Origin: a bacterium
Lineage (GTDB): Bacteria > Deinococcota > Deinococci > Deinococcales > Deinococcaceae
NCBI GenBank assembly: GCA_021810505.1
Contig: JAJZIR010000014.1
Location: forward strand, 1 to 64,000
Length of the DNA: 64,000 nt
Direction: 5' to 3'
Both the position numbers and the translations under genes were made by a program. Position 1 is the first letter of the stretch, and each line of letters begins with the position of its first letter. The notes below the pieces were generated by a model. The model searched no databases. It was not told the DNA's origin and saw only the letters and a program-made list of their open reading frames with translations. Shown here one piece after another: positions 43,201-62,209 of the stretch.

Positions 43201-46200
43201 CCCCACGCACGTGGGGATGGACCGCCGTAGATGCCGTCTTTTTCATTTCTTACCTCGCGTTCCCCACGCACGTGGGGATGGACCGCCGGAAGTACTGCGT
43301 GGGCGCACTTACAAGGTGCGTTCCCCACGCACGTGGGGATGGACCGGCCTTGGCGTGACGGCGGTAGACCTTTCGGGCGCGTTCCCCACGCACGTGGGGA
43401 TGGACCGTCTCGGGTGTTCTGCGAGAACTCGACTATCCGGCGTTCCCCACGCACGTGGGGATGGACCGCGTACTCGCGAATCCATGATTTTCTTGATGGC
43501 GCGTTCCCCACGCACGTGGGGATGGACCGTACCACTAGGTCTTACCGCCGGCACCCCTGCTGCGTTCCCCACGCACGTGGGGATGGACCGCAGCAGCCGA
43601 GCCCAGGCATGCCCGAGCGCGCGCGTTCCCCACGCACGTGGGGATGGACCGATCAAGCAAGAAGATGGGCTCGCTGCCCGGCGCGTTCCCCACGCACGTG
43701 GGGATGGACCGAACTATTGATTGATCAATGATTGAGGGTTGATGCGTTCCCCACGCACGTGGGGATGGACCGCCTCCAAGTCGCGCTTACTTCCGCGGAA
43801 GAAGCGTTCCCCACGCACGTGGGGATGGACCGCTGTTGATATGTACCGTCCCTCCCCCGCCCGCGCGTTCCCCACGCACGTGGGGATGGACCGGTCATAC
43901 CCTGCACCGGGAAGTCGGCCAACATGCGTTCCCCACGCACGTGGGGATGGACCGCCCCATGCATGTGCACGGGGCTTCTTAAGGGCGCGTTCCCCACGCA
44001 CGTGGGGATGGACCGGCCGCCCACAATGGCTCTAGCCATACGGCCGGGCGTTCCCCACGCACGTGGGGATGGACCGCGGTGGAACCGGTCGTCGCCACAA
44101 CGGACACAGCGTTCCCCACGCACGTGGGGATGGACCGTCATTATCGCAGATGGGATTCTCATTCCTGGTGCGTTCCCCACGCACGTGGGGATGGACCGCG
44201 AAGCACGCCGGCGGGCGCAGACGCGCCAATGCGTTCCCCACGCACGTGGGGATGGACCGCGCTGGTTGTGATAGCGTCCGCTGTTCTTCAGCGCGTTCCC
44301 CACGCACGTGGGGATGGACCGCCAAGCATCACAGGGACGCAGCAGCAACGTAAGCGTTCCCCACGCACGTGGGGATGGACCGCCCCCCTGGCTGGCCGGC
44401 TCCTGGCCGCTTGAGCGTTCCCCACGCACGTGGGGATGGACCGCGATCCGCCGGATTCAGCGGGCCATGGACCGCGCGTTCCCCACGCACGTGGGGATGG
44501 ACCGGCCCAGGGCGGCATGGAGCTGGAGGGCCAGCTGCGTTCCCCACGCACGTGGGGATGGACCGTGGCGCCTGATCTGATCGACCGGCTGCGGGGAGCG
44601 TTCCCCACGCACGTGGGGATGGACCGGATACCGTTTGTCTCGGAGAGTCACTCATACCGCGTTCCCCACGCACGTGGGGATGGACCGAGGCTTTGGAGTT
44701 CTTGCAGGGGGCTCTGAACGCGTTCCCCACGCACGTGGGGATGGACCGGCTGCTGGCCGCCCCAACGGCTTTAAGAGTCTGCGTTCCCCACGCACGTGGG
44801 GATGGACCGTCGCTGGTTCCCGGTCCCGGCCGCTGGCCATGGCGTTCCCCACGCACGTGGGGATGGACCGGTTAGATCCTGATCCTCAGGGTCCCCGCCC
44901 ACGCGTTCCCCACGCACGTGGGGATGGACCGCAGTCCCTGAAGGCGGTGGATAGGCGGCCGATGCGTTCCCCACGCACGTGGGGATGGACCGAGCGCCAT
45001 GGCGGGGATTACCCGTGAGAGAAAGCGTTCCCCACGCACGTGGGGATGGACCGCAGGCGCGGGCCTCCCCGCCCCGGCCCTGTATGCGTTCCCCACGCAC
45101 GTGGGGATGGACCGATACTCTCATACTCCCACCCGCGGCGCGGTATGCGTTCCCCACGCACGTGGGGATGGACCGAGGCGCGGGCCAAGGGCGCCGAGCT
45201 CTGGGGCGCGTTCCCCACGCACGTGGGGATGGACCGAGGCAGGGCCGAGCGGGGCAGCGGCAGCGAACGCGTTCCCCACGCACGTGGGGATGGACCGGAG
45301 GCGTCGCCATCTGGCCGGGCGACAGCCCCGCGTTCCCCACGCACGTGGGGATGGACCGCTGCCCCTGAGGGGTGGGCCAATAGGCTTGGTGCGTTCCCCA
45401 CGCACGTGGGGATGGACCGCCCAAGAGCGGCGAGACCGATCAGGATCAGGGCGTTCCCCACGCACGTGGGGATGGACCGTCTCATCTAGCCTGGTCGCTG
45501 GCGTCAGAATAGCGTTCCCCACGCACGTGGGGATGGACCGGGCAGGGAGCCCGGCACCCGCCTCCCGGTAGAGCGTTCCCCACGCACGTGGGGATGGACC
45601 GTCTCTTCCGGTCCTGGGGGCTCACCACCTCCGCGTTCCCCACGCACGTGGGGATGGACCGCAAACCGGCCAGACCACGCGGACGCCCTCAGAGCGTTCC
45701 CCACGCACGTGGGGATGGACCGGGTGGTACTGGCTGGCCACCCAACCCAAAAGCGCGTTCCCCACGCACGTGGGGATGGACCGCGGCCTAGGGCAGCTAA
45801 GGGCTATCAATCGGTGCGTTCCCCACGCACGTGGGGATGGACCGTAGGGCACAGCCCGAGCAGCATGACCGAGGTGGCGTTCCCCACGCACGTGGGGATG
45901 GACCGCCGGGGTGACTGGGCGCGCCGTGGCGGTGGATGCGTTCCCCACGCACGTGGGGATGGACCGCTGTTCCTGATGCGCCGCGAGGCTGAGGCCCTGC
46001 GTTCCCCACGCACGTGGGGATGGACCGGTCAGGTAGCCGCTATAGGAAGAGGTGGATGAGCGTTCCCCACGCACGTGGGGATGGACCGCTTGGTACAGAC
46101 CAGCGGGGACGGCCTGCTGCGCGTTCCCCACGCACGTGGGGATGGACCGGCGAAGGTCGTGCCGGCCTCGGCCATGGCCAGGCGTTCCCCACGCACGTGG

Positions 46201-49200
46201 GGATGGACCGCTCACCCCGCCGGCTCGGCCCGGGCGGCTGGTGCGTTCCCCACGCACGTGGGGATGGACCGAAGCATCGTTCATCGACGCGACCTCCTCG
46301 GGAGCGTTCCCCACGCACGTGGGGATGGACCGCTCGCTGGTCTCAGCACCGACCCGCTGCCAGCGCGTTCCCCACGCACGTGGGGATGGACCGAGGAGCG
46401 CATCCAGGGCGCGATCAGGGAGGGGCGTTCCCCACGCACGTGGGGATGGACCGTTACCGGTCAGCTGAGCGGCCGAGAGCTGCTGGCGTTCCCCACGCAC
46501 GTGGGGATGGACCGGAGGTAGCCTCCTCGCTGCTGAGCTCCCAGTGGCGTTCCCCACGCACGTGGGGATGGACCGACCGAGTTCGACCCCAGCCGCATCG
46601 TCTCCTCGCGTTCCCCACGCACGTGGGGATGGACCGGGTGGTACTGGCTGGCCACCCAACCCAAAAGCGCGTTCCCCACGCACGTGGGGATGGACCGACC
46701 CACGCTACCCGCCCGCCCGGGCTGACGTAGCGTTCCCCACGCACGTGGGGATGGACCGAGCGCGGGATTAGCCGCGCTGGAGGGCTCCCAGCGTTCCCCA
46801 CGCACGTGGGGATGGACCTGAGCGCCGTGAGGCCGCTGGGCAGCGGAGTGGGCGTTCCCCACGCACGTGGGGATGGACCGATGGGGATCTCGTAGCGGGC
46901 CACCTTGCGCCCGCGTTCCCCACGCACGTGGGGATGGACCGGCCACGGCCCGGCCCTGGAGGCTCGCTGGATCGCGTTCCCCACGCACGTGGGGATGGAC
47001 CGAAGCGGGCGGAGGAGACGATCTTGCTGGGGTCGCGTTCCCCACGCACGTGGGGATGGACCGCTTATCGCCGGAATTGTTCGGCTTCCACGGCCGCGTT
47101 CCCCACGCACGTGGGGATGGACCGTTTCCGACCGACGGGGCGGTACTAGACCTACAGCGTTCCCCACGCACGTGGGGATGGACCGCTGAGCGCCCTGGCG
47201 GTGCTTACTCCCGGGTCGCGTTCCCCACGCACGTGGGGATGGACCGATTTATGAGCTTCGCGCGGACTCGGTCAACGTGCGTTCCCCACGCACGTGGGGA
47301 TGGACCGGCAGCCCCAGCTCCTCTAGGGCGGCGCTGACGGCGTTCCCCACGCACGTGGGGATGGACCGGTCCAAGCTGTCTTGCCACAGTACCATGAGGC
47401 GCGTTCCCCACGCACGTGGGGATGGACCGCTTGGGCGGAGCGGCAGCCTAAGCCCCACCTAGCGTTCCCCACGCACGTGGGGATGGACCGTAGGCGGTTG
47501 TGAGCGGCGAGCGTGTAAGGGGCGTTCCCCACGCACGTGGGGATGGACCGTCCCTCGAGGACATGCTGCGCAAGGTGATCGCGCGTTCCCCACGCACGTG
47601 GGGATGGACCGGTAGCGCCCCACAGACATATACGGACAGGGATGCGTTCCCCACGCACGTGGGGATGGACCGTAGCACCGCACCGCACCGCGACACCGCG
47701 ACACGCGTTCCCCACGCACGTGGGGATGGACCGTTCTTCTTCGGGGAATTCTTACAATCCTACTAGCGTTCCCCACGCACGTGGGGATGGACCGGGCAGC
47801 CGCAGCTGCCTGCCTGGCCAGTTTTGGCGTTCCCCACGCACGTGGGGATGGACCGAACCTGGATAATCAGGGACAACTCTTAAAGAGCGTTCCCCACGCA
47901 CGTGGGGATGGACCGGGGACACCCTGACCGTCACTTTCCCGAATCAGGCGTTCCCCACGCACGTGGGGATGGACCGTCAGAGTCAAGGAACAAGTACCAT
48001 CCGACGTCGCGTTCCCCACGCACGTGGGGATGGACCGAAGCGGTACATAATCGAAATGAGGTTCGTGCCGCGTTCCCCACGCACGTGGGGATGGACCGTC
48101 AGAATAGGCCGGGCTCCGGCGATTCTGCACGCGTTCCCCACGCACGTGGGGATGGACCGGGTGGCGGGCTTATGGTAAACGCACAAGCGCAGCGTTCCCC
48201 ACGCACGTGGGGATGGACCTACCGGTCTCCATGTCAGCCCTCCCTCCTTCTCGCGTTCCCCACGCACGTGGGGATGGACCGCCGAGGCCCTCAGCTGGAT
48301 CCAGCTACTCCCGGCGTTCCCCACGCACGTGGGGATGGACCGGTCCAGGTCGCGCTCGAGCAGCGCAGCCCGGAGCGTTCCCCACGCACGTGGGGATGGA
48401 CCGGCGTTGCCGCCATACCGAGCCAACGGGCTCGAGCGTTCCCCACGCACGTGGGGATGGACCGCCTGGTGGAAGAAAGGGCAGCCGCAGGTGGCCGCGT
48501 TCCCCACGCACGTGGGGATGGACCGACGGGGCCTCGGCGGAGACCCCTGGCACTCTAGCGTTCCCCACGCACGTGGGGATGGACCGATTAACCAGTACAT
48601 TGTCTCGCTTGAGTTCAAGCGTTCCCCACGCACGTGGGGATGGACCGTACCGGGCCTGGGAGGTTGCCGAAGACGACGGGCGTTCCCCACGCACGTGGGG
48701 ATGGACCGCTCACCACGCGCATACGGGAACTCCTGGGTGAGCGTTCCCCACGCACGTGGGGATGGACCGCTGCGCACGATTCGCGCGAGCATCGAGCTGA
48801 TGCGTTCCCCACGCACGTGGGGATGGACCGTGTCGGGGTCGCCTCCAGGGTCGACCGGAGGTGCGTTCCCCACGCACGTGGGGATGGACCGTGTCGGGGT
48901 CGCCTCCAGGGTCGACCGGAGGTGCGTTCCCCACGCACGTGGGGATGGACCGATTCCGCTGCTGTCTTCGGTAAAATCGGCTTCGCGTTCCCCACGCACG
49001 TGGGGATGGACCGGCCAGGGCATGGGGAGCGCAGTCGGCGTCCTCGCGTTCCCCACGCACGTGGGGATGGACCGATGGATTCCGAAGAAAATAGAGATTG
49101 GGACAAGCGTTCCCCACGCACGTGGGGATGGACCGACAACTGGAGTGACTAATCCTCCAGATTTAGCGCGTTCCCCACGCACGTGGGGATGGACCGCTCA

Positions 49201-52200
49201 CCGTCCAATCATGAGGATCCCACCGAGGGCGTTCCCCACGCACGTGGGGATGGACCGCAGTCTCGCCGCGGCAGAGAGCCCGCAGCAATGCGTTCCCCAC
49301 GCACGTGGGGATGGACCGGCCCGGCGGCTGGTGAAGCCGGCCTGGTACATGCGTTCCCCACGCACGTGGGGATGGACCTGAGGAAGCGCGCGCTCAGGAG
49401 TATTTAGCCGAGCGTTCCCCACGCACGTGGGGATGGACCGCGTACAGGATGTTCAGCGAATCAACGTAGGTCGCGTTCCCCACGCACGTGGGGATGGACC
49501 GAGGTGGTCAGCGTATAGATCTGAGCGGTGGTGGCGTTCCCCACGCACGTGGGGATGGACCGTAGACAGGGTGTAATAGGACTGCTGGGTAAGGGCGTTC
49601 CCCACGCACGTGGGGATGGACCGAGATGGGAAGATGGCGTACTCCCCAGACGCCGGCGTTCCCCACGCACGTGGGGATGGACCGAGATATCTGTATTGTC
49701 CACTAAACCAGCTTAAGCGTTCCCCACGCACGTGGGGATGGACCGAGACCAAGCCGTCTACCACCTCGAAATCGGTAGCGTTCCCCACGCACGTGGGGAT
49801 GGACCGAAGTGTGCTTCGCGGCCCGGGAACGGGCCAAAGCGTTCCCCACGCACGTGGGGATGGACCGCAGGCGTGGGCGATCTGGGTGGCGCAGACCCGC
49901 GTTCCCCACGCACGTGGGGATGGACCGTTGGCCTTGCTGAGCAGGATCACCCGGCGGTGGCGTTCCCCACGCACGTGGGGATGGACCGTCATAGATGATG
50001 TCTTCCGGGATGCCGTTGATGCGTTCCCCACGCACGTGGGGATGGACCGCCTGCGGATCGCTCTGGAAGAGCGACTCCAGCGCGTTCCCCACGCACGTGG
50101 GGATGGACCGCCAGCTCAAGGTAGCTGGCCGGGGCGGGGATGGCGTTCCCCACGCACGTGGGGATGGACCGGGTTGGGTAATTACCGACGGTCGTACGCA
50201 TACGCGTTCCCCACGCACGTGGGGATGGACCGGTCTGGCCACCTGGCCGGTCGGTACCCACCGGGCGTTCCCCACGCACGTGGGGATGGACCGCAGGGGC
50301 ATGGGGCGGGCGCCTCCCAGGGCCCGCGTTCCCCACGCACGTGGGGATGGACCGCTGATCTGCCTGGTTCTGATCGGCCTGACCGCGCGTTCCCCACGCA
50401 CGTGGGGATGGACCGCGATTGAAAAATTGCCGCGCATAGCCCCATTCGCGTTCCCCACGCACGTGGGGATGGACCGTCCCCTACTGTACGGTCAGTAGGG
50501 GACTTGGGGCGTTCCCCACGCACGTGGGGATGGACCGAGAGCGGGGCATCTTCTCGCGCTTGGCTTCGGGCGTTCCCCACGCACGTGGGGATGGACCGGT
50601 TACAACCCGATCACCCTCGGAAACTACAACGCGTTCCCCACGCACGTGGGGATGGACCGTCCGCTCAATCATCCTCCTTATCGCCGTTGTGGCGTTCCCC
50701 ACGCACGTGGGGATGGACCGTCTTTACGGCTTCCCTCCAATACCTCCGTGATGCGTTCCCCACGCACGTGGGGATGGACCGACCAAGCGGTATATCGTCA
50801 CCAGCAGGTTTGCGCGTTCCCCACGCACGTGGGGATGGACCGCATTGCAGGCGATTCTATATTCGGGCATGTCAGCGTTCCCCACGCACGTGGGGATGGA
50901 CCGGGAAGGCAGAAATGACCAAGACCAAGCGCTATGCGTTCCCCACGCACGTGGGGATGGACCGAACTCACCGGGTTTGCGGAGCCGCGCATTGATGCGT
51001 TCCCCACGCACGTGGGGATGGACCGGTCACGTCTTGGGCACGCTATGTGCCCATGCCGCGTTCCCCACGCACGTGGGGATGGACCCCGACATAGCGCTGA
51101 AGCTCGTGCCGGTAGACCTCGCGTTCCCCACGCACGTGGGGATGGACCGCCTCTGGTTATGGAGTTGGACGCCCCCTATGCGCGTTCCCCACGCACGTGG
51201 GGATGGACCCAGCTATCCGTCCGATGGGGAGGAACTCATGAGCGTTCCCCACGCACGTGGGGATGGACCGGTAGCGCCCCACAGACGTATACGGACATGG
51301 GTGCGTTCCCCACGCACGTGGGGATGGACCTTCAACATGAACGGCGACCCCGCGGCGGTGATCGCGTTCCCCACGCACGTGGGGATGGACCGGGAGGGTT
51401 TCCAGTCCTGAGTACTCAGGCAAGGCGTTCCCCACGCACGTGGGGATGGACCGACGCGTAAGCTGCTCGACCGGCAGTTGAAGCGGCGTTCCCCACGCAC
51501 GTGGGGATGGACCGACAGCTTGGGTGAGCTGCGCATCAGCGCCCGAGCGTTCCCCACGCACGTGGGGATGGACCGCTCTCTGGCCCTGGCCAGGCTGTCG
51601 CGACAACGCGTTCCCCACGCACGTGGGGATGGACCGGCCTGAGGGTTGGCCCGGAGGTCCGAGAGGCGGCGTTCCCCACGCACGTGGGGATGGACCGGGA
51701 ACCTAGGGGATATCTGGCTAGATGGGCTAGCGTTCCCCACGCACGTGGGGATGGACCGTCTGCGGCATTTTTAGGCTCTCCAGAGAAGCCGCGTTCCCCA
51801 CGCACGTGGGGATGGACCGTGAGCCAAACGCCGCGTGCCATAGCCCAATTCGCGTTCCCCACGCACGTGGGGATGGACCGGCGACGCTATCGATCACTAC
51901 CAAGCTAACGCCGCGTTCCCCACGCACGTGGGGATGGACCGGCCAGATCCAGCGCGTCGGAGGCGGCCTGGATGCGTTCCCCACGCACGTGGGGATGGAC
52001 CGTCTTCACGGCTTCCCTCCAGTACCTCCGTGATGCGTTCCCCACGCACGTGGGGATGGACCGACCGCCCGGAGCTTCCCGGGGAGGTCCTTCAGGCGTT
52101 CCCCACGCACGTGGGGATGGACCGATAGCCCTCCCCATTTTCTATACGCCAGTGGGCGTTCCCCACGCACGTGGGGATGGACCGACCGCCCGGAGCTTCC

Positions 52201-52489
52201 CGGGGAGGTCCTTCAGGCGTTCCCCACGCACGTGGGGATGGACCGTACGCATAAACCCTGGGACGGTAATCTCCCTCGCGTTCCCCACGCACGTGGGGAT
52301 GGACCGTACGCATAAACCCTGGGACGGTAATCTCCCTCGCGTTCCCCACGCACGTGGGGATGGACCGCGTCCGGCGCCTTGGATTGGCAAGAAGGACGCG
52401 CGTTCCCCACGCACGTGGGGATGGACCGGAGAGAGGCTGGGCTGGGCTAATAGAGCTCGGGCGTTCCCCACGCACGTGGTGATAAGCGG
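40268..52489 (+). CRISPR. Type I-E CRISPR array, 201 repeats and 200 spacers (manual count)
   Basis: A 29-nt repeat beginning GCGTTCCCCACGCACGTG and ending GGGATGGACCG, with stem CCCCACG/CGTGGGG around CA, recurs every 61 nt. I tracked repeat starts from 40268 to 52461. Spacers are 32 nt, except ten of 31, one of 33 (44260-44292) and one of 34 (51087-51120). The repeat resembles the E. coli I-E repeat in stem and handle. Orientation is left to right: the first repeats are perfect and the last (52461-52489) is decayed from position 20 on. Six repeats differ only in their last base (T at 46819, 48220, 49379 and 51331; C at 51086 and 51210). Confidence 0.98.
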
Positions 52490-52543: not shown

Positions 52544-52581
52544 GGACCCGGGGTAGCTCAGAAAACACCTCGCCCGGGTCC
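52544..52581. terminator. Inverted repeat between array end and cas2
   Basis: GGACCCGGG (52544-52552) pairs with CCCGGGTCC (52573-52581) across a 20-nt loop; its last base is the end of the cas2 stop codon. It may terminate the two converging transcripts. Confidence 0.45.
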
Positions 52582-52955
52582 TAAAAAGGAGGCCCCCCAT
52601 CCTCACAGCCGGTTCCTTCAACTGTGGCAGCGGATCCGAGGCGACCCTTCGCTGCGGTTGATTCCATCCATTTAGACCAAATAGCGTCTTGCACAGCGGC
52701 TAGCTTGATTCCCTCTACGTCTAAGATCATGCGACAGGTAGGTCCATAACTGCGGACTTCAAAGCCTTGTTCGTTATTTGTCGCATATACTTGAATACAG
52801 TTACCAGTTCCCTCGCTGCGACACTTCTCCCATAAGCGATCACGGACAGCGGCCGACAGACGACCGATAAAAACACCTGTCCCGAACTCTATCATCCACC
52901 GGGATAGCTCGCCGCGCAGTCCCTTAGGAACTTCTTCAAGAATGATCAAGACCAT
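52581..52955 (-). CDS. cas2: Cas2e, CRISPR adaptation protein
   Basis: 124 residues from ATG 52955, overlapping cas1 by 20 nt. MVLIILEEVPKGLRGELSRWMIEFGTGVFIGRLSAAVRDRLW-type sequence is diagnostic of the type I-E Cas2 (ferredoxin fold; dimer bridging two Cas1 dimers during spacer integration). The C-terminal tail of about 30 residues is low in conservation. The longer frame from 53033 lies within cas1 and is rejected. It lies about 90 nt from the trailer end of the array. Confidence 0.93.
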   Translation of the reverse strand: MVLIILEEVPKGLRGELSRWMIEFGTGVFIGRLSAAVRDRLWEKCRSEGTGNCIQVYATNNEQGFEVRSYGPTCRMILDVEGIKLAAVQDAIWSKWMESTAAKGRLGSAATVEGTGCEDGGPPF

Positions 52956-53892
52956 AGGCGGTCCCGCCCGGTATATACACGTCACCCTCCCACAAGTCTC
53001 CTGGCAGGGCCGGATCATCTCCATCCACTCCATCCGGGACTACAGCTTCGCTAGCATTGGGTGGGAAAAGTGAGTTCAGATCATCTATGACCCGCTCTAG
53101 TAGCCGTGTTTCTCGGAATTGATCTCGAAGCTTGGTCCTCACCCTGGACTCAACGTGATTCGGGGAGTCAGCAACAGCCTGAAAAGCCACAGGAATTACG
53201 CTAGAGGCCTTATAGATATCCGCAACGTCATAGACGAAGGAGAGCTGCTTGCCGGTATGCAAAAAGCCGAGTGCGGTGGAATATCCAGCTGAGACAATGG
53301 CAGCGTGACAGACACCATAGAGGCAGGCTGCGCCACTGGATAATGCCCGGTTTACCGGGTCAGAGCTATTCCACTGACCTTTGTTGCGATCGTAACGGCG
53401 ACCATACCAGGGCACTCCGGTCTTACGGCTCCATTCGGTATAGGTTGTCCGTACCCGTACTCCTTCATGACCGCGCAATTGCTCGAGAGTCCACTCCTCT
53501 GGGACCGGATACCCAAAGCGTAGTGCGTACATCTTACGGACCACCCGCAGATGCAGGCTCTGATCGCACCAGGCTCGAGCCTGCCGCTGAATCCGTAAAC
53601 TACTACGGGTTTCCCCTGTACCGCAGGCATAGAAGCGCACCAAATCCTGGCCGACCCACAGTACCGAGCAACCTAGCTGGGCCAGCTGGTGCACCGCCGC
53701 GTGAGTAATCGAAGTCCCGGGACCAAGCATCAAGACTGAGAGCGAAGCAGCCGGCAGTTGAGATGAGCCCATTTCGCTGAGCCAAACTACCGCAAAATCG
53801 TGTTGGACGATATTCCCAGCTTCCAAGTAAAGGTAGCTGAGTCCATCGCGGAAACGCGGCAGCTCATTGAGGTCAGTTACCTTGCGTTCCAC
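52936..53892 (-). CDS. cas1: Cas1e, CRISPR integrase
   Basis: 318 residues. The metal-binding triad is visible: Glu143 in LRGHEGVRVR, His212 in GFLHTGKQLSF, Asp222 in FVYDVADIYK. N-terminal LPRFRDGLSYLYLEAG is the typical I-E opening. With Cas2 it captures and integrates new spacers at the leader. The C-terminal acidic tail is usual. It starts 16 nt after cas6e. Confidence 0.96.
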   Translation of the reverse strand: MERKVTDLNELPRFRDGLSYLYLEAGNIVQHDFAVVWLSEMGSSQLPAASLSVLMLGPGTSITHAAVHQLAQLGCSVLWVGQDLVRFYACGTGETRSSLRIQRQARAWCDQSLHLRVVRKMYALRFGYPVPEEWTLEQLRGHEGVRVRTTYTEWSRKTGVPWYGRRYDRNKGQWNSSDPVNRALSSGAACLYGVCHAAIVSAGYSTALGFLHTGKQLSFVYDVADIYKASSVIPVAFQAVADSPNHVESRVRTKLRDQFRETRLLERVIDDLNSLFPPNASEAVVPDGVDGDDPALPGDLWEGDVYIPGGTAYGLDHS

Positions 53893-53908
53893 ACGGATCC
53901 CTCATTCC

Positions 53909-54556
53909 TCAGCCTGCAACCAGAGAAGCCGAAGCCGCTGCTACAGACAACAAGCCCAAACCAAAAGCTTTGCCATGGCCAATCCCGAGGTGTAAGACCG
54001 AGCGGAAAATTTCCGGGTCACCAATTCGGAGGTGCCCTTGATAGGTGACAACCTGCAGGGTCATCAGGGCCGGATAGTCCCCTGATCTGCGCACTCGCCA
54101 GCGCTCGCTAGACTGCACCATCGCCCCCTTGAGCTCAAAGCCAGATTTCGAAGCCTGTCGTTCGAGCCAAGCCATCTGCTCATCCAGGCCAGCAAGCCCT
54201 CTGCGCTTCGGCCTAGCTTCGGCTTCCAGGCCCTCAGAGCGGCGAGTCACGGTAGGGTTGGCGCGCAGCAAAAAGCGCAGCAATTGGCCCGAACGAAGCG
54301 ATGGGGCGAAAAGCTTCACTCCGGCGGGTTCAGTCAAGTACTCTCTGGGCAGGGCCTCCCAATCTGGCTCGCTCCAGGTCTGAATCAGCAAAATTGGACT
54401 CCTGGTACCTTCCAAACGCCACAACAAGCGTTCTTGGCCTCGATCGAGAGCCCCAGCCACGGCCCTCGACAATGTCCTGTGACATTCATAAGGATTAGAG
54501 AGATCTCTGCGCACCTGACTATTCCGCAAGTTAGGGTGCAGCTTAGAGAGATACAT
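53909..54556 (-). CDS. cas6e: Cas6e (CasE/Cse3), crRNA endoribonuclease
   Basis: 215 residues: MYLSKLHPNLRNSQVRRDL, then ECHRTLSRAVAG with the catalytic His candidate near residue 26, and the glycine-rich RNA-binding loop LHLGIGHGKAFGLGLLSV near the C-terminus. Cuts each repeat at the base of its stem and stays on the crRNA 3' hairpin. It overlaps cas5e by 14 nt. Confidence 0.94.
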   Translation of the reverse strand: MYLSKLHPNLRNSQVRRDLSNPYECHRTLSRAVAGALDRGQERLLWRLEGTRSPILLIQTWSEPDWEALPREYLTEPAGVKLFAPSLRSGQLLRFLLRANPTVTRRSEGLEAEARPKRRGLAGLDEQMAWLERQASKSGFELKGAMVQSSERWRVRRSGDYPALMTLQVVTYQGHLRIGDPEIFRSVLHLGIGHGKAFGLGLLSVAAASASLVAG

Positions 54557-55220
54557 AGCGCTCCTTCAAGCGGCTCACAGTCAGGCTGGTGACATAGCGT
54601 GGACCGAAACGGCGCTCGGCAAAAGAGCTCAGTGGCTGATCCATTCGCAGAGCGCCACCTTCCCTTTCGTCCTGCGTTTCGAGGATTAACCTAGGGTCGG
54701 CTACCCGCTTTGACGCGCTATTTCCGAGCAAAGGGGGATACACCAGCAAGGCCTGTTCTAGGGAGGAATCAAGTAATCCCCCCTCTAACCAGACCGGCCG
54801 GCTAGGGACATAAGACTTACGCCCTAAAGAGAGAAGCCAGTGGGGATTCCGCAGAGCCTTATCGGCAGCCTTGAGAAGATTCTCCGGACCCTCCAAGCCG
54901 ACCAGAAAGGCGGCGTCAGCAAGGTAAGCGCGTCTGGAGACAGCGGTATCTTGTGTTCCTTTACCACTTGCTCGGATTACCTCCTGAGCAGTCTGGAAGT
55001 CAAAGCGCAAAACACCCTCCCGATCAACTCGGACGCCCATACGTAGCTGGCAAAGGGGCTGCAGGCTCGGCCAGTCGGCGCGATCGATACCCAAGGCTGC
55101 CGCCAAGATCCCCAGCACGCCAGACTTAGAGGGTTCGAGGTCGCTGTCCCGATTATCGAAGCGGCTTCTCGTACCCCAAGACTGCATAGGACCGACCAGA
55201 GCCATCAACAACGTCGCCAC
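54543..55220 (-). CDS. cas5e: Cas5e (CasD), Cascade subunit
   Basis: 225 residues from GTG 55220. MATLLMALVGPMQSWGTRSRFDNRDS is the classic Cas5e start; SKSGVLGILAAALG and the C-terminal RRFGPRYVTSLTV region follow. It caps the 5' handle of crRNA in Cascade. One nt separates it from cas7e. Confidence 0.95.
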   Translation of the reverse strand: MATLLMALVGPMQSWGTRSRFDNRDSDLEPSKSGVLGILAAALGIDRADWPSLQPLCQLRMGVRVDREGVLRFDFQTAQEVIRASGKGTQDTAVSRRAYLADAAFLVGLEGPENLLKAADKALRNPHWLLSLGRKSYVPSRPVWLEGGLLDSSLEQALLVYPPLLGNSASKRVADPRLILETQDEREGGALRMDQPLSSFAERRFGPRYVTSLTVSRLKERYVSL

Positions 55221-55221
55221 T

Positions 55222-56388
55222 TCAGCCCTCCAGGAGCTCGCGTACCCGAGATTCCACCGAGCTCAAGAGTTCGCTGAAAGTCAGCGATTTCTCGGGATGG
55301 AGAGCGTTGACCTCCAGTGCATCGGCGCGGTGTCCATAGATCTTCTCCAAGCGGAGCGCTTCTTCCTTGAGGATGTCGATCGAGGCAGCTACCAAACCTG
55401 CGCCCTCCGCTCGAACCGGCTTCTCGAAAGCGTTGGCCAGATTGCGGGGGCTACCCTGATCGGCGGCGACCACCGCGATGTAGCTGGGGGGGTTGTGCGC
55501 AGCAAAGCTATTCTGTTTGCCGCTTGGGAGGCTCTCAACCGAAGAAGACACGAAGGCCTTGGCGGCCGATACTGCCAATTCGCGGTCCTCTCCCAGATTG
55601 TGCAGGAGCAGGTCGAGATCGATGACGGCGTAGCGGTAGAAGCAGCTCGAAGTGAACTCGACCGTACCCAACATATCAGCACCACTAGTGTCGTCTGGCC
55701 GAAGGTCGTCCACTGCGGTATAAAAATCGAACTCGCGCTCGACTCGGTGCGTCGATATAGCGTGGGCAACCTGACAAGCTGCGTCACGGTTGGCCTCAGG
55801 TAAATCAGCCAGCATCCGCCCAAACAAGGCCAGGTCGACTGCCTTACCACCATCCAGGCTCTCCTTGAGCCGCTTGATCAGATCAGCCGGGGCTGCTTTC
55901 TTGGCTTCTTTTTTAGCCGCCTTCCCTGACTTGCCTTCGGATCCGGCTTCTGCAGCTGCTAAAAGCGCCTCGAAGGTCTTTTCCTCAGCGATCAGAGAGG
56001 TGACCTTGGCCAGCTCGCGCTCGCCCAAAAAGACCAGGTATTGTGTCTTGGCATCTCCCTCACCTTCCGGATTCCGGACCACCTTGATACCCAGCCCACC
56101 CAAGGCGCACGAAACAGCCGCTTCTGCCTGGTCGGCAGGCTTGCCCATCTCCACCAAACGGCCGACCAGCTGACCGCTGAGGCGCTTAGTCCGGTAAGCC
56201 AGGTTCTCTGTGGGTACCAGCTGGGCATCCCGCATCCGGTCACGGGCCGCACGCTTGAGCGACTGGCTGCTCAAGCGTGCACGCCGAACACCACCGAAGA
56301 TGCAGTCCTTGGGGCTACCGGTATCGTCACGGTTGAGGTTAGAAGGGGCGACGTTCTGGAGGATGTGGAGCTCGAGGTAGTGGCGCAT
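55222..56388 (-). CDS. cas7e: Cas7e (CasC/Cse4), Cascade backbone
   Basis: 388 residues. LELHILQNVAPSNLNRDDTGSPKDCIFGGVRRARLSSQSLKRA-type N-terminus and DMLGTVEFTSSCFYRYAVIDL are diagnostic. Six copies coat the crRNA and flip out every sixth guide base. A lysine/alanine-rich stretch (GKSGKAAKKEAKKAAPADL) near residue 165 looks like a lineage-specific insertion. ATG preceded by AAGGA. Confidence 0.96.
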   Translation of the reverse strand: MRHYLELHILQNVAPSNLNRDDTGSPKDCIFGGVRRARLSSQSLKRAARDRMRDAQLVPTENLAYRTKRLSGQLVGRLVEMGKPADQAEAAVSCALGGLGIKVVRNPEGEGDAKTQYLVFLGERELAKVTSLIAEEKTFEALLAAAEAGSEGKSGKAAKKEAKKAAPADLIKRLKESLDGGKAVDLALFGRMLADLPEANRDAACQVAHAISTHRVEREFDFYTAVDDLRPDDTSGADMLGTVEFTSSCFYRYAVIDLDLLLHNLGEDRELAVSAAKAFVSSSVESLPSGKQNSFAAHNPPSYIAVVAADQGSPRNLANAFEKPVRAEGAGLVAASIDILKEEALRLEKIYGHRADALEVNALHPEKSLTFSELLSSVESRVRELLEG

Positions 56389-56405
56389 ATATGTCCTTTC
56401 TTGCC

Positions 56406-57014
56406 CTAGAGGGCTTCCGAGCTAGGTGTAGATGCCTCGGCTTGATCGGCTTGTGGGGAACGGTAGAAGTCTCTGGCCCAGGCCTGCTGAACCCGTTTGG
56501 ACACAGATCCCCAACGGCGAAGATCTTGGGCTAACCCAGCCCAGTCGAATCCGAGCTCGTCCGAGCGCAGCAAAGAAATCATTTGCCTTAGGCGGTAAGA
56601 CAGCTGGTCGGCGTCCGCATCCAGAAGAGCTAGGAAGTGCTGCTCGAAGCTGCTGCCAGCGTCTCGCTGCTCCAGATCCCTGCGCATCTCCCCGCACGCC
56701 GCAGCCAGGCTGCGGTCTCCCCGGCTGGGATGAAAAGCGAACAGGCCAGCGACCAGATAGAGAACTCTGCGCTCGAATTCGTTGCAGCTCCCCGTTATCG
56801 GCTCCACCCAGCGATAAACAGCAGGGTCCTCGCCGGGCGGGAAGCTCAGGCTGCGGCGCAGGGCCGCCAGAGCACGCCGCTCCGGCGGCGGCCCGGCTAG
56901 CTGTGCGAGTAGCTCGAGCAAGCGCTGCGCCGCCAGCCAGACACCGCCCCGACCAGGGGCGATCGGCTGAACTTCCGGCGCAGCAGTGTGAGGAGCTTGG
57001 GGGTTCTCAGTCAC
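56406..57014 (-). CDS. cse2: Cse2 (CasB), Cascade small subunit
   Basis: 202 residues from GTG 57014, overlapping the cas8e stop (GTGA). All-alpha protein; ALAALRRSLSFPPGEDPAVYRWVEP and LVAGLFAFHPSRG match the Cse2 pattern. The dimer stabilises the displaced strand of the R-loop. Confidence 0.9.
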   Translation of the reverse strand: MTENPQAPHTAAPEVQPIAPGRGGVWLAAQRLLELLAQLAGPPPERRALAALRRSLSFPPGEDPAVYRWVEPITGSCNEFERRVLYLVAGLFAFHPSRGDRSLAAACGEMRRDLEQRDAGSSFEQHFLALLDADADQLSYRLRQMISLLRSDELGFDWAGLAQDLRRWGSVSKRVQQAWARDFYRSPQADQAEASTPSSEAL

Positions 57015-58630
57015 AGTTGACCTCCTCGGGTCTCTGAGGGTACTAGGTGCGGTGGGGGTGGAGCGGACGGCGCCGCGGTATCCATCAGCTTGGACTTGGC
57101 AAACATCCAGGCCCGGTCGGCCCGCTCAATAGCCCGCAAGGCTCTGGCACTCAGGCCGACCGACTGCTTGCTACGGTCCCATACCTCCTGAGCCAGCGAA
57201 AGCGCCCGATCGCGCCACCATATCCGGGTCTCCCCTAGAGCCGGCTCAGAGCCTAGCCGGCTCAGCAATTCCGGAAAGCTCTGAGCCAGCTTGGACCAAT
57301 AGTCTGGCGATAATGGCAGCGTAGCGACCAGATTGTCGACGTCCTTGCGATCCGGCTTGCGCTCGCCGACCGTGAGCAGTCCGGTAGCCAACGACCATGC
57401 TGCGGAGCGTAAGGCTCTATCCACCTGGTCGCAGAATTCCAGAGAGCTCTGCGCCACTTCATAGGCAGAGGGGTTCTCTAGCAAGCTGAGCGGTAGGCGG
57501 TAGTATTCCTGGTACCATCCCTCGATCTTGGCCTGCTCATTAGCTTGTCCCAGGACCAGAAGGTGGATGGGGCCCTCGGCCAGTCCCTCCTGGCGAAGCC
57601 GCCAGGCCCGCTCTACACAGGCCGGGGGGATGTCGCGAGTTTTAAGCTTGCTATAGGGAACCAAGGCCAGCAAGTCGCGCCACAGGCCCCTAGAAACATC
57701 AAAACCCACTAAGCGGTAACGCGCAGGCTGCCCCTTGGGCTCTACCCAACGGTAGGCGCAGAGAGGATCGGGCTGCACTACCTCGGGTTCGAGAGGGCGA
57801 ATACCCGAGGCGTAAGCAAGCCAGCGCAGCTGCACCCCGCCTTCCGACTCCTCGGGACGAAAGTGCACAGCCCGCGACAGCCAGGTGTAAGTATCCGTGA
57901 TCCCCCGGGGGCGGCGTCCAGGGCCAGGGCGGAGCGCATCCAAGGGCACCGGGTCCTGCTCCCAGATCGGGGTGTCGATGGCCCTACGCTCCGCTGGGTA
58001 ATCGGGCAGGTTGGTGCACAGCGTCTCGAACAGATTGCCACCCAAGACGATGGCCATCGCCCCCGCTGCTACTGGAGCGGTGCTGGTGTAAACTCCAGCG
58101 AAGGGGCTCTTACCTGCACTAACCGCAAAGGTCTGGTGGGCGATGAGCAAGCGGGCGGCCTCCGCCGGCTTGATAGGTGGTGGATCGTCGACCATCAGGT
58201 GGTCGAAAAGTACTTTGTTGTTGTCGGTGTTGCGCTCGGCAGCCAGGACTGCCCAGGCGCGATCGGGCAGTTCCAGAGCCCGGTCGACCACTTGCCAAAA
58301 TGGCTTTTCCGGATGGAACAGATCGAAGCGCTCTCTCCAACGATCCAGGTAAGCGTCCACTTGGGGTGGAAAACTACCCCCTTTCCATAGGTCAGACAGC
58401 TCGTCGATATCGTCTGGTCCATCTAGCGACCTATGTAGGATGGCTAGGAGCAGGCGATGCAGAGCCGCCGTCACCAGCGGCGAGGCGTCTTCTATACCTC
58501 GGATCTGGTGCGCGCGCCGCAGGGTATCCCGAATACCCAAGGCGCTGCGTTCGCCGTTCAGCAGGCGCACCGGGATCCAGGGCTCTAAGAGCAAGTCGAA
58601 AGTGTACAGGCGAAATTCACCCCTTTCCAT
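57011..58630 (-). CDS. cas8e: Cas8e (CasA/Cse1), Cascade large subunit
   Basis: 539 residues from ATG 58630. YTFDLLLEPWIPVRLLNGE, ITGIEDASP-like QIRGIEDASPLVTAALHRLL, HPEKPFWQV, NTDNNKVLFDHL and a C-terminal four-helix part (ALRAIERADRAWMFAKS) define Cse1. It recognises the PAM and recruits Cas3. It has its own promoter (58669-58674), separate from cas3. The frame extends to 58678, but that start lies within the -10 region. Confidence 0.95.
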   Translation of the reverse strand: MERGEFRLYTFDLLLEPWIPVRLLNGERSALGIRDTLRRAHQIRGIEDASPLVTAALHRLLLAILHRSLDGPDDIDELSDLWKGGSFPPQVDAYLDRWRERFDLFHPEKPFWQVVDRALELPDRAWAVLAAERNTDNNKVLFDHLMVDDPPPIKPAEAARLLIAHQTFAVSAGKSPFAGVYTSTAPVAAGAMAIVLGGNLFETLCTNLPDYPAERRAIDTPIWEQDPVPLDALRPGPGRRPRGITDTYTWLSRAVHFRPEESEGGVQLRWLAYASGIRPLEPEVVQPDPLCAYRWVEPKGQPARYRLVGFDVSRGLWRDLLALVPYSKLKTRDIPPACVERAWRLRQEGLAEGPIHLLVLGQANEQAKIEGWYQEYYRLPLSLLENPSAYEVAQSSLEFCDQVDRALRSAAWSLATGLLTVGERKPDRKDVDNLVATLPLSPDYWSKLAQSFPELLSRLGSEPALGETRIWWRDRALSLAQEVWDRSKQSVGLSARALRAIERADRAWMFAKSKLMDTAAPSAPPPPHLVPSETRGGQL

Positions 58631-58668: not shown

Positions 58669-58674
58669 AGTATA
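58669..58674 (-). promoter_or_regulatory. Extended -10 promoter of the Cascade operon
   Basis: On the minus strand TGC-TATACT gives an extended -10 box (TATACT at 58674-58669), with only a weak -35. Transcription would start near 58662, about 32 nt before the cas8e ATG. Confidence 0.6.
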
Positions 58675-58681
58675 GCACACT

Positions 58682-58698
58682 ATGCTGTAATTGATTAC
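58682..58698 (+). promoter_or_regulatory. Predicted Cascade target upstream of the cas8e promoter
   Basis: ATG PAM (58682-58684) followed by CTGTAATTGATTAC (58685-58698). It matches the first 14 guide bases of the crRNA-like element at 58832 downward in all but positions 6 and 12. An R-loop here would cover the -35 region of the cas8e promoter. Confidence 0.6.
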
Positions 58699-58704
58699 CA
58701 GACG

Positions 58705-58720
58705 TATGACTGAAGTCATA
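58705..58720. promoter_or_regulatory. Inverted repeat upstream of cas8e
   Basis: TATGAC-TGAA-GTCATA, six-base arms, about 45 bp upstream of the predicted transcription start. It could be an operator for a protein regulator. Confidence 0.35.
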
Positions 58721-58786
58721 GAAGTCCTACCGGACCCAGCAGCTCTCGAGCGGAGCATGGTGTGTCTCTCCACATCAGGGCGAGAG

Positions 58787-58815
58787 ACAAACCCCACAGA
58801 CGTGGGGAGGGGCCC
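58787..58815. repeat. Second degenerate CRISPR repeat-like hairpin
   Basis: CCCCAC-AGAC-GTGGGG (58792-58807). Read on the plus strand, 58787-58815 agrees with the array repeat at 20 of 29 positions by my alignment; read on the minus strand (58812-58784), at 18. On the minus strand it is followed by TTTGTC and may act as the 3' hairpin or terminator of the crRNA-like element. Confidence 0.55.
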
Positions 58816-58861
58816 AACGTCATCAAATACAGCGGTTCATCCCGGAGAAGTCCTGGAAGCG
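58801..58861 (-). ncRNA. Candidate crRNA-like regulatory guide between cas3 and cas8e
   Basis: 58861-58833 aligns with the array repeat at 15 of 29 positions, but the matches are the functional ones: TTCC at the 5' side and GGGATG-ACCG at the end, giving handle ATGAACCG against ATGGACCG. Positions 6-11 and 16-21 still form a stem (five of six pairs, CCAGGA/TCCGGG, loop CTTC) in the same register, with different bases. A guide-like segment follows from 58832 (CTGTATTTGATGACGTTGGG). It may be co-transcribed with cas3. Compare CreR/CreA-type guides. Size of the guide (32 nt assumed) is uncertain. Confidence 0.6.
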
Positions 58862-58890: not shown

Positions 58891-61578
58891 CTAGACCAGA
58901 TCGCCATAGACCACCCCCAGTTCTGGATCCAGGGAGATCTTGAGCTGGCCTACTTGAGCTGAGCCGCCGACCAAGGTGAGCACCTTGCAGCCGCCGAGTA
59001 GCGGGTGGTCGGTCCAGCCCGCAGGCACCTCGACTCCGCGGAGCCCCTTAACCGCTGCGGAACGGCCGAGGGTAACCATCCGGCCATAGATCGAGACGGC
59101 CTGGTCCCAAGAAGGCTTGCGCGAGGGATCGACGGCGACCCGTCCCTCAGGATCTAGGCTGAGGTGACCGGCCGAGGAGTGGAGCAAGACGGCTTGGACG
59201 GAAGGACGGACCAGCCGGGTAGAGAGGTGCTCTTCCGTGGAGCAGAGAGCGGCCTCAGCACCGCCCCAATCCCCGAGCTGAGCTGGGGGGTCCGAGTTCA
59301 CGAACTTCTCCGGGCCAGCAATCCAGCTATACGCTGCCGCCCTCTTATAGTCCGCCTTTTCGGCTTCGTATTCCTGCCAGGAAGTGCGCAGCAGGGGCCC
59401 TAGCCAAGCAGGGCTGCTCTCGGGCAAGCCTTGGGAATAGACCGCATCGATCAGGGTCTCCAGGTCATCTGGAAGTTTTAAGGAGGTGCGGCCCTGGAGC
59501 TCCCACCAGGTCCGCCACAGCAGATATGAAGGATAAATCAGGCCCGAATACCCCAGGTCCGGATTTTTGGGATCCTGCTCTAAGTAGGCCACCTGCAGCT
59601 GGGCTTCGCGCAGCAATCGAGGTCTAGGGTCATTCTCGCGATGGCGGTGCAAGCGACCAGCCCTCTGCAGGAGCAGATCGATCGGGGCCAGGTCGGTGAT
59701 CATGCCATCGAAGTCCAAGTCCAAGCTCTGCTCGGCAACCTGGGTAGCCACCAGGATCGCCCGGGGAGGTCGCGTGCCGGCAGCGGGGGCAGCAGGACCG
59801 AAGCGGCGCAGCACCTGCTCTTCGAGCCTCTGGCGGTCAGTTCCTGGAAAGCGGGCGTGGAACAGCAGCAATTCGGTCGGCTCTGGCAGAGCCGCAGCTA
59901 GGTTACGCAGCGCGAGGTAGACTTCCTGAGCCCGCTGCACGGTATTCAGGATGATCGCCAGACAACCTCCCGATCCCAGGCGCCGCAGGGCCAGCTCGGC
60001 CAGCTCGGCCGGGGCAGAAGGCGCTGGGTTCAGGCGGATGATGGGTAGCGGCCGAGCTTCGACGTGAAGACTCTCGGTCCCCTGGGCGTCTACCCGCGTG
60101 ACCCGGGGATAGGGCGCAAGCCGGCCTCCTCGGTCCCCGTAGGCTTGCAAGAGCTCCTCGCGCAGCGCGCGGGGCAGCGTAGCCGACATGATCACTGCCG
60201 AAGAACCCAGAGCCGCCAGCCAGCGCACCAGCTGAGCCAGCAGCGAACCGGTATAGCTGTCATAAGCGTGTACCTCGTCGAGGACTACTGTGCGGTTGGT
60301 CAGTCCCCAGAGCCGCACGAAGTGGTGCTTACTGCGGATCACCCCCATGAGCATCTGATCGACGGTCCCAACACCATACTCGCTCAGGAAAGCGCGCTTG
60401 CGGTGACTAAACCAGCTGGAAACCCGCAGCGCCTCTCCTGGCCCATCTTCATAGCTAACGTCACGCAGGCTCTTCAGATCAGCGTATTCAGCGTTGAGCA
60501 GCGCTGCTCCGTGCTGCAGCTGCAAGTCAGTAAGACGAGGAGCCGCTCCGCTACGCATGGCGCAGGACTCCAAAAAAGCACGGGTACGCGAGAACATGGC
60601 GTTCCCGGTCGCTCGAGTGGGCAGAGCCACGTACATGCCCCGGTGACCAAAACGCTTCTGCAAGATCAAGTGGGCATGCAGCGCGGCCTCGGTCTTACCT
60701 TCGCCGGTAGGCACCTCGACCAGCAGGAGGCTAGGTCTCGAGGCGCCTTCAGCTAGCTGAGCAGCCGCGCTCTGCAGTGGCCTGGGGAGGCGACCCGCGA
60801 AGACCTCAGCAAAAGCGATAGGTAAGGGGCCTTCCCAGAGCGCAGTTCTCGGTTGCCAACCGATCTTGTCTAAGGCAGCCGCCGCCAGCTGGGCCGCCTG
60901 CTTTAGATAAGTCACAGAGGGAGTGCGCCCATAGGGAAAGAATTCAGAAGCCGAGGCGATCCAGTCACAGAAGCTGGTCAGACCGGCTAGGCGGATCCAG
61001 GCGGGGCCCTCTAAGGCGCTGACCGCAGGGAACACCGGTGCCCCGAAGGCGAGAATCACCTGCTCTACCAATTCTTTCCGCACCAGATCCCAAGAACCTG
61101 ATCCCCACTGGCTTGGGCGGGAAGCCAGTGCTCCGAGCTCGGAAAAGCTGGGCCGGCGGCCGTGATGGCAGCCTACCGACTGCGCGATCTGCCGAGCTAG
61201 CCTGCTGGGAAAGCCCCGTCCAGCTAGCAATTTACTCAACAAAAATTCAGTGAGCAGCCCATGCGGACAGCGATCTGATTGCAGCTCGATAGATAATCCA
61301 GTTGCCAAGACACCTTGCTTTCCTTCGTCCCAGAGAGACTGAAACGCAGGTGTCGCTTTACCGAGATCGTGCAAAGCGGCTAGGATCTGCACCCAGTGCA
61401 CAGCTTGTTCAACCGGCAAACCCAAATCAGCCGCGAGCTGAGCTTTGCTCTGTGCAGGCTCACGCCCGAGCACCTCTCCAACCACCGCGCCGACATCTAG
61501 AAGGTGGGCGAGTAGGCTGTGGCGGGGCTCACCCTCCCGGGCGCTTTTGGCCCATAGGCTGTCGAGTTGCTCGGACAC
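58891..61578 (-). CDS. cas3: Cas3, HD nuclease-helicase
   Basis: 895 residues from GTG 61578, with GGAGGT four nt upstream; the ATGs at 61596 and 61644 lack such a site. N-terminal HD nuclease domain (LHDLGKATPAFQSLW; GCHHGRRPSF), then an SF2 helicase: Walker A VEVPTGEGKTEAALH, DEVHAYDS, IMSATLPR, and motif VI region LLQRAGRLHRH. It is recruited by Cascade to nick and degrade target DNA. Its stop is followed by the cas8e gap, not directly by cas8e. Confidence 0.95.
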   Translation of the reverse strand: MSEQLDSLWAKSAREGEPRHSLLAHLLDVGAVVGEVLGREPAQSKAQLAADLGLPVEQAVHWVQILAALHDLGKATPAFQSLWDEGKQGVLATGLSIELQSDRCPHGLLTEFLLSKLLAGRGFPSRLARQIAQSVGCHHGRRPSFSELGALASRPSQWGSGSWDLVRKELVEQVILAFGAPVFPAVSALEGPAWIRLAGLTSFCDWIASASEFFPYGRTPSVTYLKQAAQLAAAALDKIGWQPRTALWEGPLPIAFAEVFAGRLPRPLQSAAAQLAEGASRPSLLLVEVPTGEGKTEAALHAHLILQKRFGHRGMYVALPTRATGNAMFSRTRAFLESCAMRSGAAPRLTDLQLQHGAALLNAEYADLKSLRDVSYEDGPGEALRVSSWFSHRKRAFLSEYGVGTVDQMLMGVIRSKHHFVRLWGLTNRTVVLDEVHAYDSYTGSLLAQLVRWLAALGSSAVIMSATLPRALREELLQAYGDRGGRLAPYPRVTRVDAQGTESLHVEARPLPIIRLNPAPSAPAELAELALRRLGSGGCLAIILNTVQRAQEVYLALRNLAAALPEPTELLLFHARFPGTDRQRLEEQVLRRFGPAAPAAGTRPPRAILVATQVAEQSLDLDFDGMITDLAPIDLLLQRAGRLHRHRENDPRPRLLREAQLQVAYLEQDPKNPDLGYSGLIYPSYLLWRTWWELQGRTSLKLPDDLETLIDAVYSQGLPESSPAWLGPLLRTSWQEYEAEKADYKRAAAYSWIAGPEKFVNSDPPAQLGDWGGAEAALCSTEEHLSTRLVRPSVQAVLLHSSAGHLSLDPEGRVAVDPSRKPSWDQAVSIYGRMVTLGRSAAVKGLRGVEVPAGWTDHPLLGGCKVLTLVGGSAQVGQLKISLDPELGVVYGDLV

Positions 61579-62209
61579 TGATACCTCCAATAACATGTAG
61601 CGACGCTCTCGCGACATCCCGTGGCGCGCGGTACAGAAGTTCAAGACAATCTAGCTCATGCCGGGGAGGGGTCCACCCAAACCCTGCGTCTCTGGGTAGG
61701 CAGGGTGCGGCGCGGCTCACCCCCCCGGGCGCTTTTGGCCTACAGGCTGTCGAGTACCCTACCGAAATCCTGTACTAACACGCTTTTAGCAGGGCAGACC
61801 GGCGTACACGGTGAGCGGATTGACCGCGAGGGGCCAAAAATCCTTTGCAGCAGGTTGCAGCTGCGCCGACAGCTGGGCGGAATCTTTTAAGCCGGCCGAG
61901 CAGGGTTCCCGATCCACTCCGAGCGGGTCTGAGGCGCGCCTCTATCGCGCCGGCGCTGGTCAGCTGCGCGCAACCGGTCAACGGGATACGGGATCTCCTC
62001 TTGAACCGGACCCTACGCGCGGGCAGCGCACCGAAGCGACCCGCGCCCCCAGATGAGGACCCCTGTCCACCAGAAGACCTTATCTAGCCGCGCATCTCAT
62101 TCTAAAAGCTACTTTTGCCGCCCCTAGAGTCCCCGCAGGGGATGGGCTCGCAAAATACCTGCGCAGCTTCGGGCGGGCGCTCGGCTCAGCGCTAGACCCG
62201 GCCGCCCAC
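61579..62209. other. Intergenic region upstream of cas3
   Basis: 631 bp. It holds a 45-bp imperfect copy of the cas3 5' coding region (61711-61755) and a 7-bp inverted repeat (61681-61706). I see no other gene, and no confident cas3 promoter. The part from 61850 to 62209 has no recognisable content. Confidence 0.5.
61711..61755 (-). pseudogene. Fragment duplicated from the cas3 N-terminal coding region
   Basis: Agrees with 61523-61567 (inside cas3) at 41 of 45 bases. Read in the cas3 frame it gives LDSL, a TAG stop in place of Trp, then AKSARGGEPRR, against LDSLWAKSAREGEPRH in the gene. Neither flank continues the similarity. Confidence 0.7.

Follow-up and report, generated by a model that had tools for sequence, protein, structure and literature searches.

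A short crRNA-like guide matching the cas8e promoter, very likely used by type I-E Cascade to repress its own operon in the Deinococcus–Thermus group

In a type I-E CRISPR-Cas locus of a member of the Deinococcaceae, cas3 and cas8e are separated by 260 nt, and this gap holds an element in which two degenerate repeats surround one short guide. This element can be regarded with considerable confidence as an autorepressor guide of the CreR type, and Cascade very likely switches down its own production through this promoter-matching guide. The CreR principle has already been published; what is described here is a family of such elements in the Deinococcus–Thermus group, in which guide and target change together, and the shortening of the guides by about 12 nt, as well as the small gene that precedes cas8e in the relatives, are possibly new. 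From these sequences and from known systems, we infer transcription of the guide, processing by Cas6e, loading into Cascade, repression, and release of repression. The whole stretch of 64,000 nucleotides analysed (positions 1 to 64,000 of contig JAJZIR010000014.1, assembly GCA_021810505.1) is referred to as the window, and coordinates are those of the window unless another locus is named.

The type I-E gene set of the window is complete and lies on the minus strand, comprising cas3 (58891..61644; an open reading frame with NCBIfam matches to cas3_core, E 3.4e-64, and cas3_HD, E 3.1e-24), cas8e, also known as cse1 or casA (57011..58630; Pfam PF09481, E 2.7e-99, and TIGR02547), and the remaining operon of cse2, cas7e, cas5e, cas6e, cas1e, and cas2e (52581..57014; profile matches). 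The ATG at 58630 is presumed to be the start of cas8e, the longest frame of which begins at the GTG at 58678. A single very long CRISPR array lies on the plus strand (40268..52489); its 201 repeats end in the handle ATGGACCG, and a length of 32 nt is shared by 188 of its 200 spacers. A preliminary description of this DNA had proposed a type I-E system in a host related to Deinococcota; the placement of the host is right, and the system is borne out by the presence of the array and of all eight cas genes, each named by profile.

On the cas-coding strand, the end of cas3 is followed after about 30 nt by the upstream degenerate repeat, psiR1 (58833..58861, minus strand), a counterpart of which occupies the same position in the relatives. 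The sequence of psiR1, CGCTTCCAGGACTTCTCCGGGATGAACCG, is identical to the array repeat, GCGTTCCCCACGCACGTGGGGATGGACCG, at 15 of 29 positions, and its handle, ATGAACCG (58840-58833), agrees with the array handle at seven of eight, being the only handle with at most one mismatch found when both strands of the window gap were scanned. Five of the six stem pairs are kept, three of them through changes on both sides, and there is one A–G mismatch. When folded alone, psiR1 reaches -6.0 kcal/mol (z -0.14; array repeat, -13.1), which is no better than shuffled sequences and, thus, its stem alone is little proof. The claim of a conserved stem made previously is fair with regard to base pairs but weak with regard to folding.

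The guide, or psi-spacer, CTGTATTTGATGACGTTGGG (58813..58832, minus strand), is followed by a second repeat-like hairpin that had been overlooked, psiR2 (58784..58812, minus strand), which is identical to the array repeat at 18 of 29 positions and folds with a z of -3.17. Its 6-bp stem, CCCCACGTCTGTGGGG (58807-58792), is the same as that of the array outside the loop, and its T-rich tail appeared terminator-like in the scan; psiR2 is presumed to be the Cas6e site and 3′ handle of the guide RNA and, possibly, a terminator. The position of psiR2 delimits the guide to 20 nt, 12 fewer than in the array spacers. A promoter scan of the window returned no convincing promoter of the guide's own, none of the array spacers matched the window gap, and an Rfam search of the gap gave only a sub-threshold chance match (GHRLOS, 13.9 bits; gathering score, 48). 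The psiR2 hairpin was also read on the plus strand (58787-58815, 20/29 identical to the repeat) as a possible guide source, and was dropped since its best site reached 9/12 and had no PAM.

The first 14 bases of the guide, CTGTATTTGATGAC, match the plus-strand target (protospacer) CTGTAATTGATTAC at 58685..58698 with positions 6 and 12 as the sole mismatches, so that all 12 non-sixth positions agree, and the target is preceded by an ATG PAM (58682..58684, plus strand). The PAM starts about 4 nt upstream of the extended -10 box TGCTATACT (58669..58677, minus strand), which is inferred to belong to the presumed cas8e promoter; about 40 nt separate this box from the cas8e ATG, with no other gene between them, and the promoter scan of the window found no -35 consensus for this promoter. 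The match, its two mismatches, the PAM, and the location of the target just upstream of the extended -10 box had all been described previously, and each can be read in the sequence. The same description held twelve fixed matches to be improbable by chance, in agreement with the randomizations: when the gap was shuffled 3,000 times with its dinucleotides preserved, no trial gave 12/12, the best score being 10/12 at PAM-flanked sites and 11/12 when no PAM was required, and the analytic expectation for this guide is about 1e-6 PAM-flanked sites. Moreover, guide and target are the only exact occurrences of the pattern CTGTANTTGATNAC in the genome as a whole (2.3 Mb).

Cas8e was sought in 111 Deinococcota genomes, 41 of which were positive, and nearly all loci were read, up to 1.5 kb upstream. 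In ten cas8e loci, including that of the window (L002, L004, L005, L009, L017, L022, L027, L028, L034, and L039), a hairpin with its handle follows cas3, and the guide matches a PAM-flanked site before cas8e; a stem like that of psiR2 follows the guide in all ten. A further assembly (L084), reached via a small open reading frame considered below, has an identical arrangement, target included, with 13 of 15 non-sixth positions matching and an AAG PAM. The element is also carried, at 1421-1530, by the Thermus thermophilus SNM7-6 plasmid pTthSNM7-6b (NZ_AP025618.1, L089); neither T. thermophilus HB8 (L087) nor any further Thermus plasmid that was examined has it, and it was not found in Deinococcus plasmids with type I-E systems. 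A scan of genome contigs with Cas8e returned only distant relatives. The PAM is AAG in the element of every relative and ATG in the window alone, and most relatives have a TTGACA -35 box immediately adjoining the target. The element is present where the gap between cas3 and cas8e is at least 213 nt and absent where it is at most 138 nt; elsewhere the two genes nearly touch. In L004, L005, and L084, the last codons of cas3, which immediately precede psiR1, contain -10 boxes resembling TATGAT or TAAGAT that overlap the stop codon. They suggest that transcription of the guide starts within the final part of cas3 in these relatives; such a promoter is not clear in the window.

The guides differ between loci, and each matches a target beside the promoter of its own locus. 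Loss of the guide–target match in relatives had been set beforehand as the result that would refute the proposal; the match is kept in the nine other loci, in L084, and in L089. Compared with their own targets, the guides give 95 matches in 100 positions, and none of 100,000 re-pairings was as good. Among close relatives, guide and target have changed jointly at positions 3, 10, 11, and 16 in L004/L005/L009 and at positions 5, 7, 9, and 10 in L027/L028/L034/L039. The handles also track the arrays of their hosts, being ATGAACCG in L004, L005, L009, L017, and L022 and ATGGCCCG in L027, and those of L028, L034, and L039 differ by one base. Because of the relatedness among them, the ten elements amount to about four independent sequence groups, the window and L017 standing apart from the two others.

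The mismatches between guide and target in the relatives are phased at positions 6, 12, and 18. Among the ten elements, mismatches fill 17 of the 20 cells at positions 6 and 12, compared with 5 of the 100 at the other positions of 1-11. Since the scan left sixth-base mismatches unpenalised, the phase was re-checked blind: when candidate sites were ranked by plain matches over positions 1-12, without regard to phase or PAM, the same target came first or tied first in 10/10 elements. Likewise, when the free positions were placed in any other phase, no match with both handle and PAM was recovered at any locus, compared with five for phase six.

In Escherichia coli, a PAM and about five seed pairs are enough for Cascade to bind; the sixth base is held flipped out of the pairing, and only extensive pairing permits interference (PMC5904413). 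Type I-B guides trimmed to 24-26 nt or less bring about repression without cleavage (PMC10989794, PMC10551041). On the grounds of these binding rules and of short-guide repression, autorepression is the most likely mechanism. Judging by the position of the element, the guide RNA would be made as the 3′-terminal part of the cas3 transcript; it would then be cut by Cas6e and the product, with the 5′ handle AUGAACCG followed by CUGUAUUUG, taken up by type I-E Cascade. Guide bases 1-5, 7-11, and 13-14 would pair with the PAM-flanked site at 58685-58698, a pairing that would suffice for Cascade binding and for blocking RNA polymerase and yet be too short to license cleavage by Cas3. Free Cascade would thereby set its own level by feedback repression of its own operon, and repression would be lifted when Cascade is sequestered by array crRNAs or inhibitors. 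In E. coli, a crRNA can carry a terminator hairpin at its 3′ end instead of a repeat (PMC5904413), and psiR2 may, by analogy, stand in for the 3′ repeat. The earlier interpretation of the element as a CreR-like autorepressor is supported by the unique PAM-flanked match and the covariation in the relatives. As a counterpoint, partially matched Cascade sites in E. coli are transcriptionally inert, although these are chance off-targets of full-length guides and lie mostly inside genes, and repression in that organism falls when six PAM-distal bases are mismatched (PMC5904413). Moreover, the pairing over 14 positions and the ATG PAM of the window are weaker than those of several relatives.

Nearly all relatives have, downstream of the targeted promoter and ahead of cas8e, a small open reading frame of about 60-90 amino acids whose C-terminus is often GSLDE-like (L004, 1290-1490; L005, 1289-1465; L009, 1269-1448; L022, 1289-1465; L028, 1275-1475; L039, 1293-1493; also in L017, L027, L084, and L089, in the coordinates of each locus). 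Its substitutions fall mainly at third codon positions, which marks it as a real gene; a Pfam search of these frames gave nothing above the cut-off, and its homologues by sequence in the phylum occur only at such loci, except for one marginal match. This gene is what would be expected of a module of the CreA/CreP type, in which the guide would serve to keep down a toxin or small accessory gene, with repression of cas genes as a secondary effect. However, the frame is truncated in L034 and absent from the window, where the -10 box stands about 40 nt from the cas8e ATG, and such a module is considered quite unlikely. The element could also be a relic, that is, a one-time repeat with a self-matching spacer whose function has been lost, and both repeats are indeed strongly degenerate and the stem of psiR1 is weak. 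Nevertheless, diverged relatives retain the seed, the PAM, and the handle while positions 6, 12, and 18 drift freely, a pattern unlike that of a relic, which makes this origin very unlikely. That the matching stretches are duplicated protein operators or the arms of a long-range leader RNA structure, as the mutually inverted stretches of the window, able to pair in one transcript, would allow, can practically be dismissed, since handle and PAM in every case directly precede the match, which shows six-base phasing, and the direct-repeat arrangement in four relatives, which allows no pairing in cis, contradicts the RNA-arm form.

The distance from the handle to the second stem is 24-25 nt in eight elements and 36-37 nt in two, which corresponds to guides of 19-20 nt or 31-32 nt, and the 12-nt step between them equals two Cas7 footprints. 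Within the preferred autorepressor reading, it might tentatively be proposed that the Deinococcota CreR guide is coded by length, that short-guide Cascade is restricted to repression, and that the ancestral module also controlled the small gene, although this combination is doubtful as a whole. On this view, the Cascade formed on a short guide would be smaller by two Cas7 units, would serve repression alone, and could not license Cas3; the small gene before cas8e, possibly a CreP-like one, would have been under the control of the ancestral module; and the lineage of the window, without this gene, would have become a pure autorepressor.

CreR are cas-regulating RNAs of modulatory mini-CRISPRs, found in types I-B, I-E, and V-A, in which a guide resembling a crRNA is encoded close to the cas genes, is complementary to a limited extent to a cas promoter, and brings about autorepression via the effector (PMC12737573, PMC13131331). 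The window element resembles them in its limited PAM-flanked complementarity (12/14, with ATG) to the presumed cas8e promoter and in its degenerate host-type repeats, psiR1 and psiR2, around a guide located outside the array and near the cas genes. Compared with CreR as known here from review descriptions, it differs in belonging to a clade-wide Deinococcota set with covariation and six-base phasing, in the 19-20-nt guides of most members, and in the small open reading frame under the same promoter in the relatives. CreA, of CreTA or CrePA modules, likewise has two degenerate repeats and a guide whose partial pairing with a promoter brings Cascade there (PMC8501985, PMC9458426), but it represses a toxin, whereas the window guide targets the cas8e promoter; no toxin gene intervenes between target and cas8e and, thus, the adjacent toxin promoter that defines CreA is lacking. 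Canonical type I-E crRNAs share the handle, the stem, the guide, and the type I-E PAM, but the element differs from them in its degenerate repeats, its guide of about 20 nt rather than 32, its partial pairing, and its self target.

With these elements, the range of CRISPR-Cas systems that probably regulate themselves by a guide RNA would come to include a clade whose thermophiles are well studied, on evolutionary evidence, covariation and six-base phasing, that is independent of any single locus. According to one paper, repression by shortened guides had yet to be demonstrated for type I-E (PMC10551041), and these loci offer a testable case in which type I-E Cascade with a naturally short guide would act as a repressor. 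T. thermophilus strains SNM7-6, with the element, and HB8, without it, provide a ready comparison.

Two minor features of the window locus were also observed. The terminal repeat of the array, which adjoins cas2, is degenerate, and a 63-nt stretch near the start of cas3 (61505-61567) is duplicated as a direct repeat of 84% identity upstream of the gene (61693-61755).
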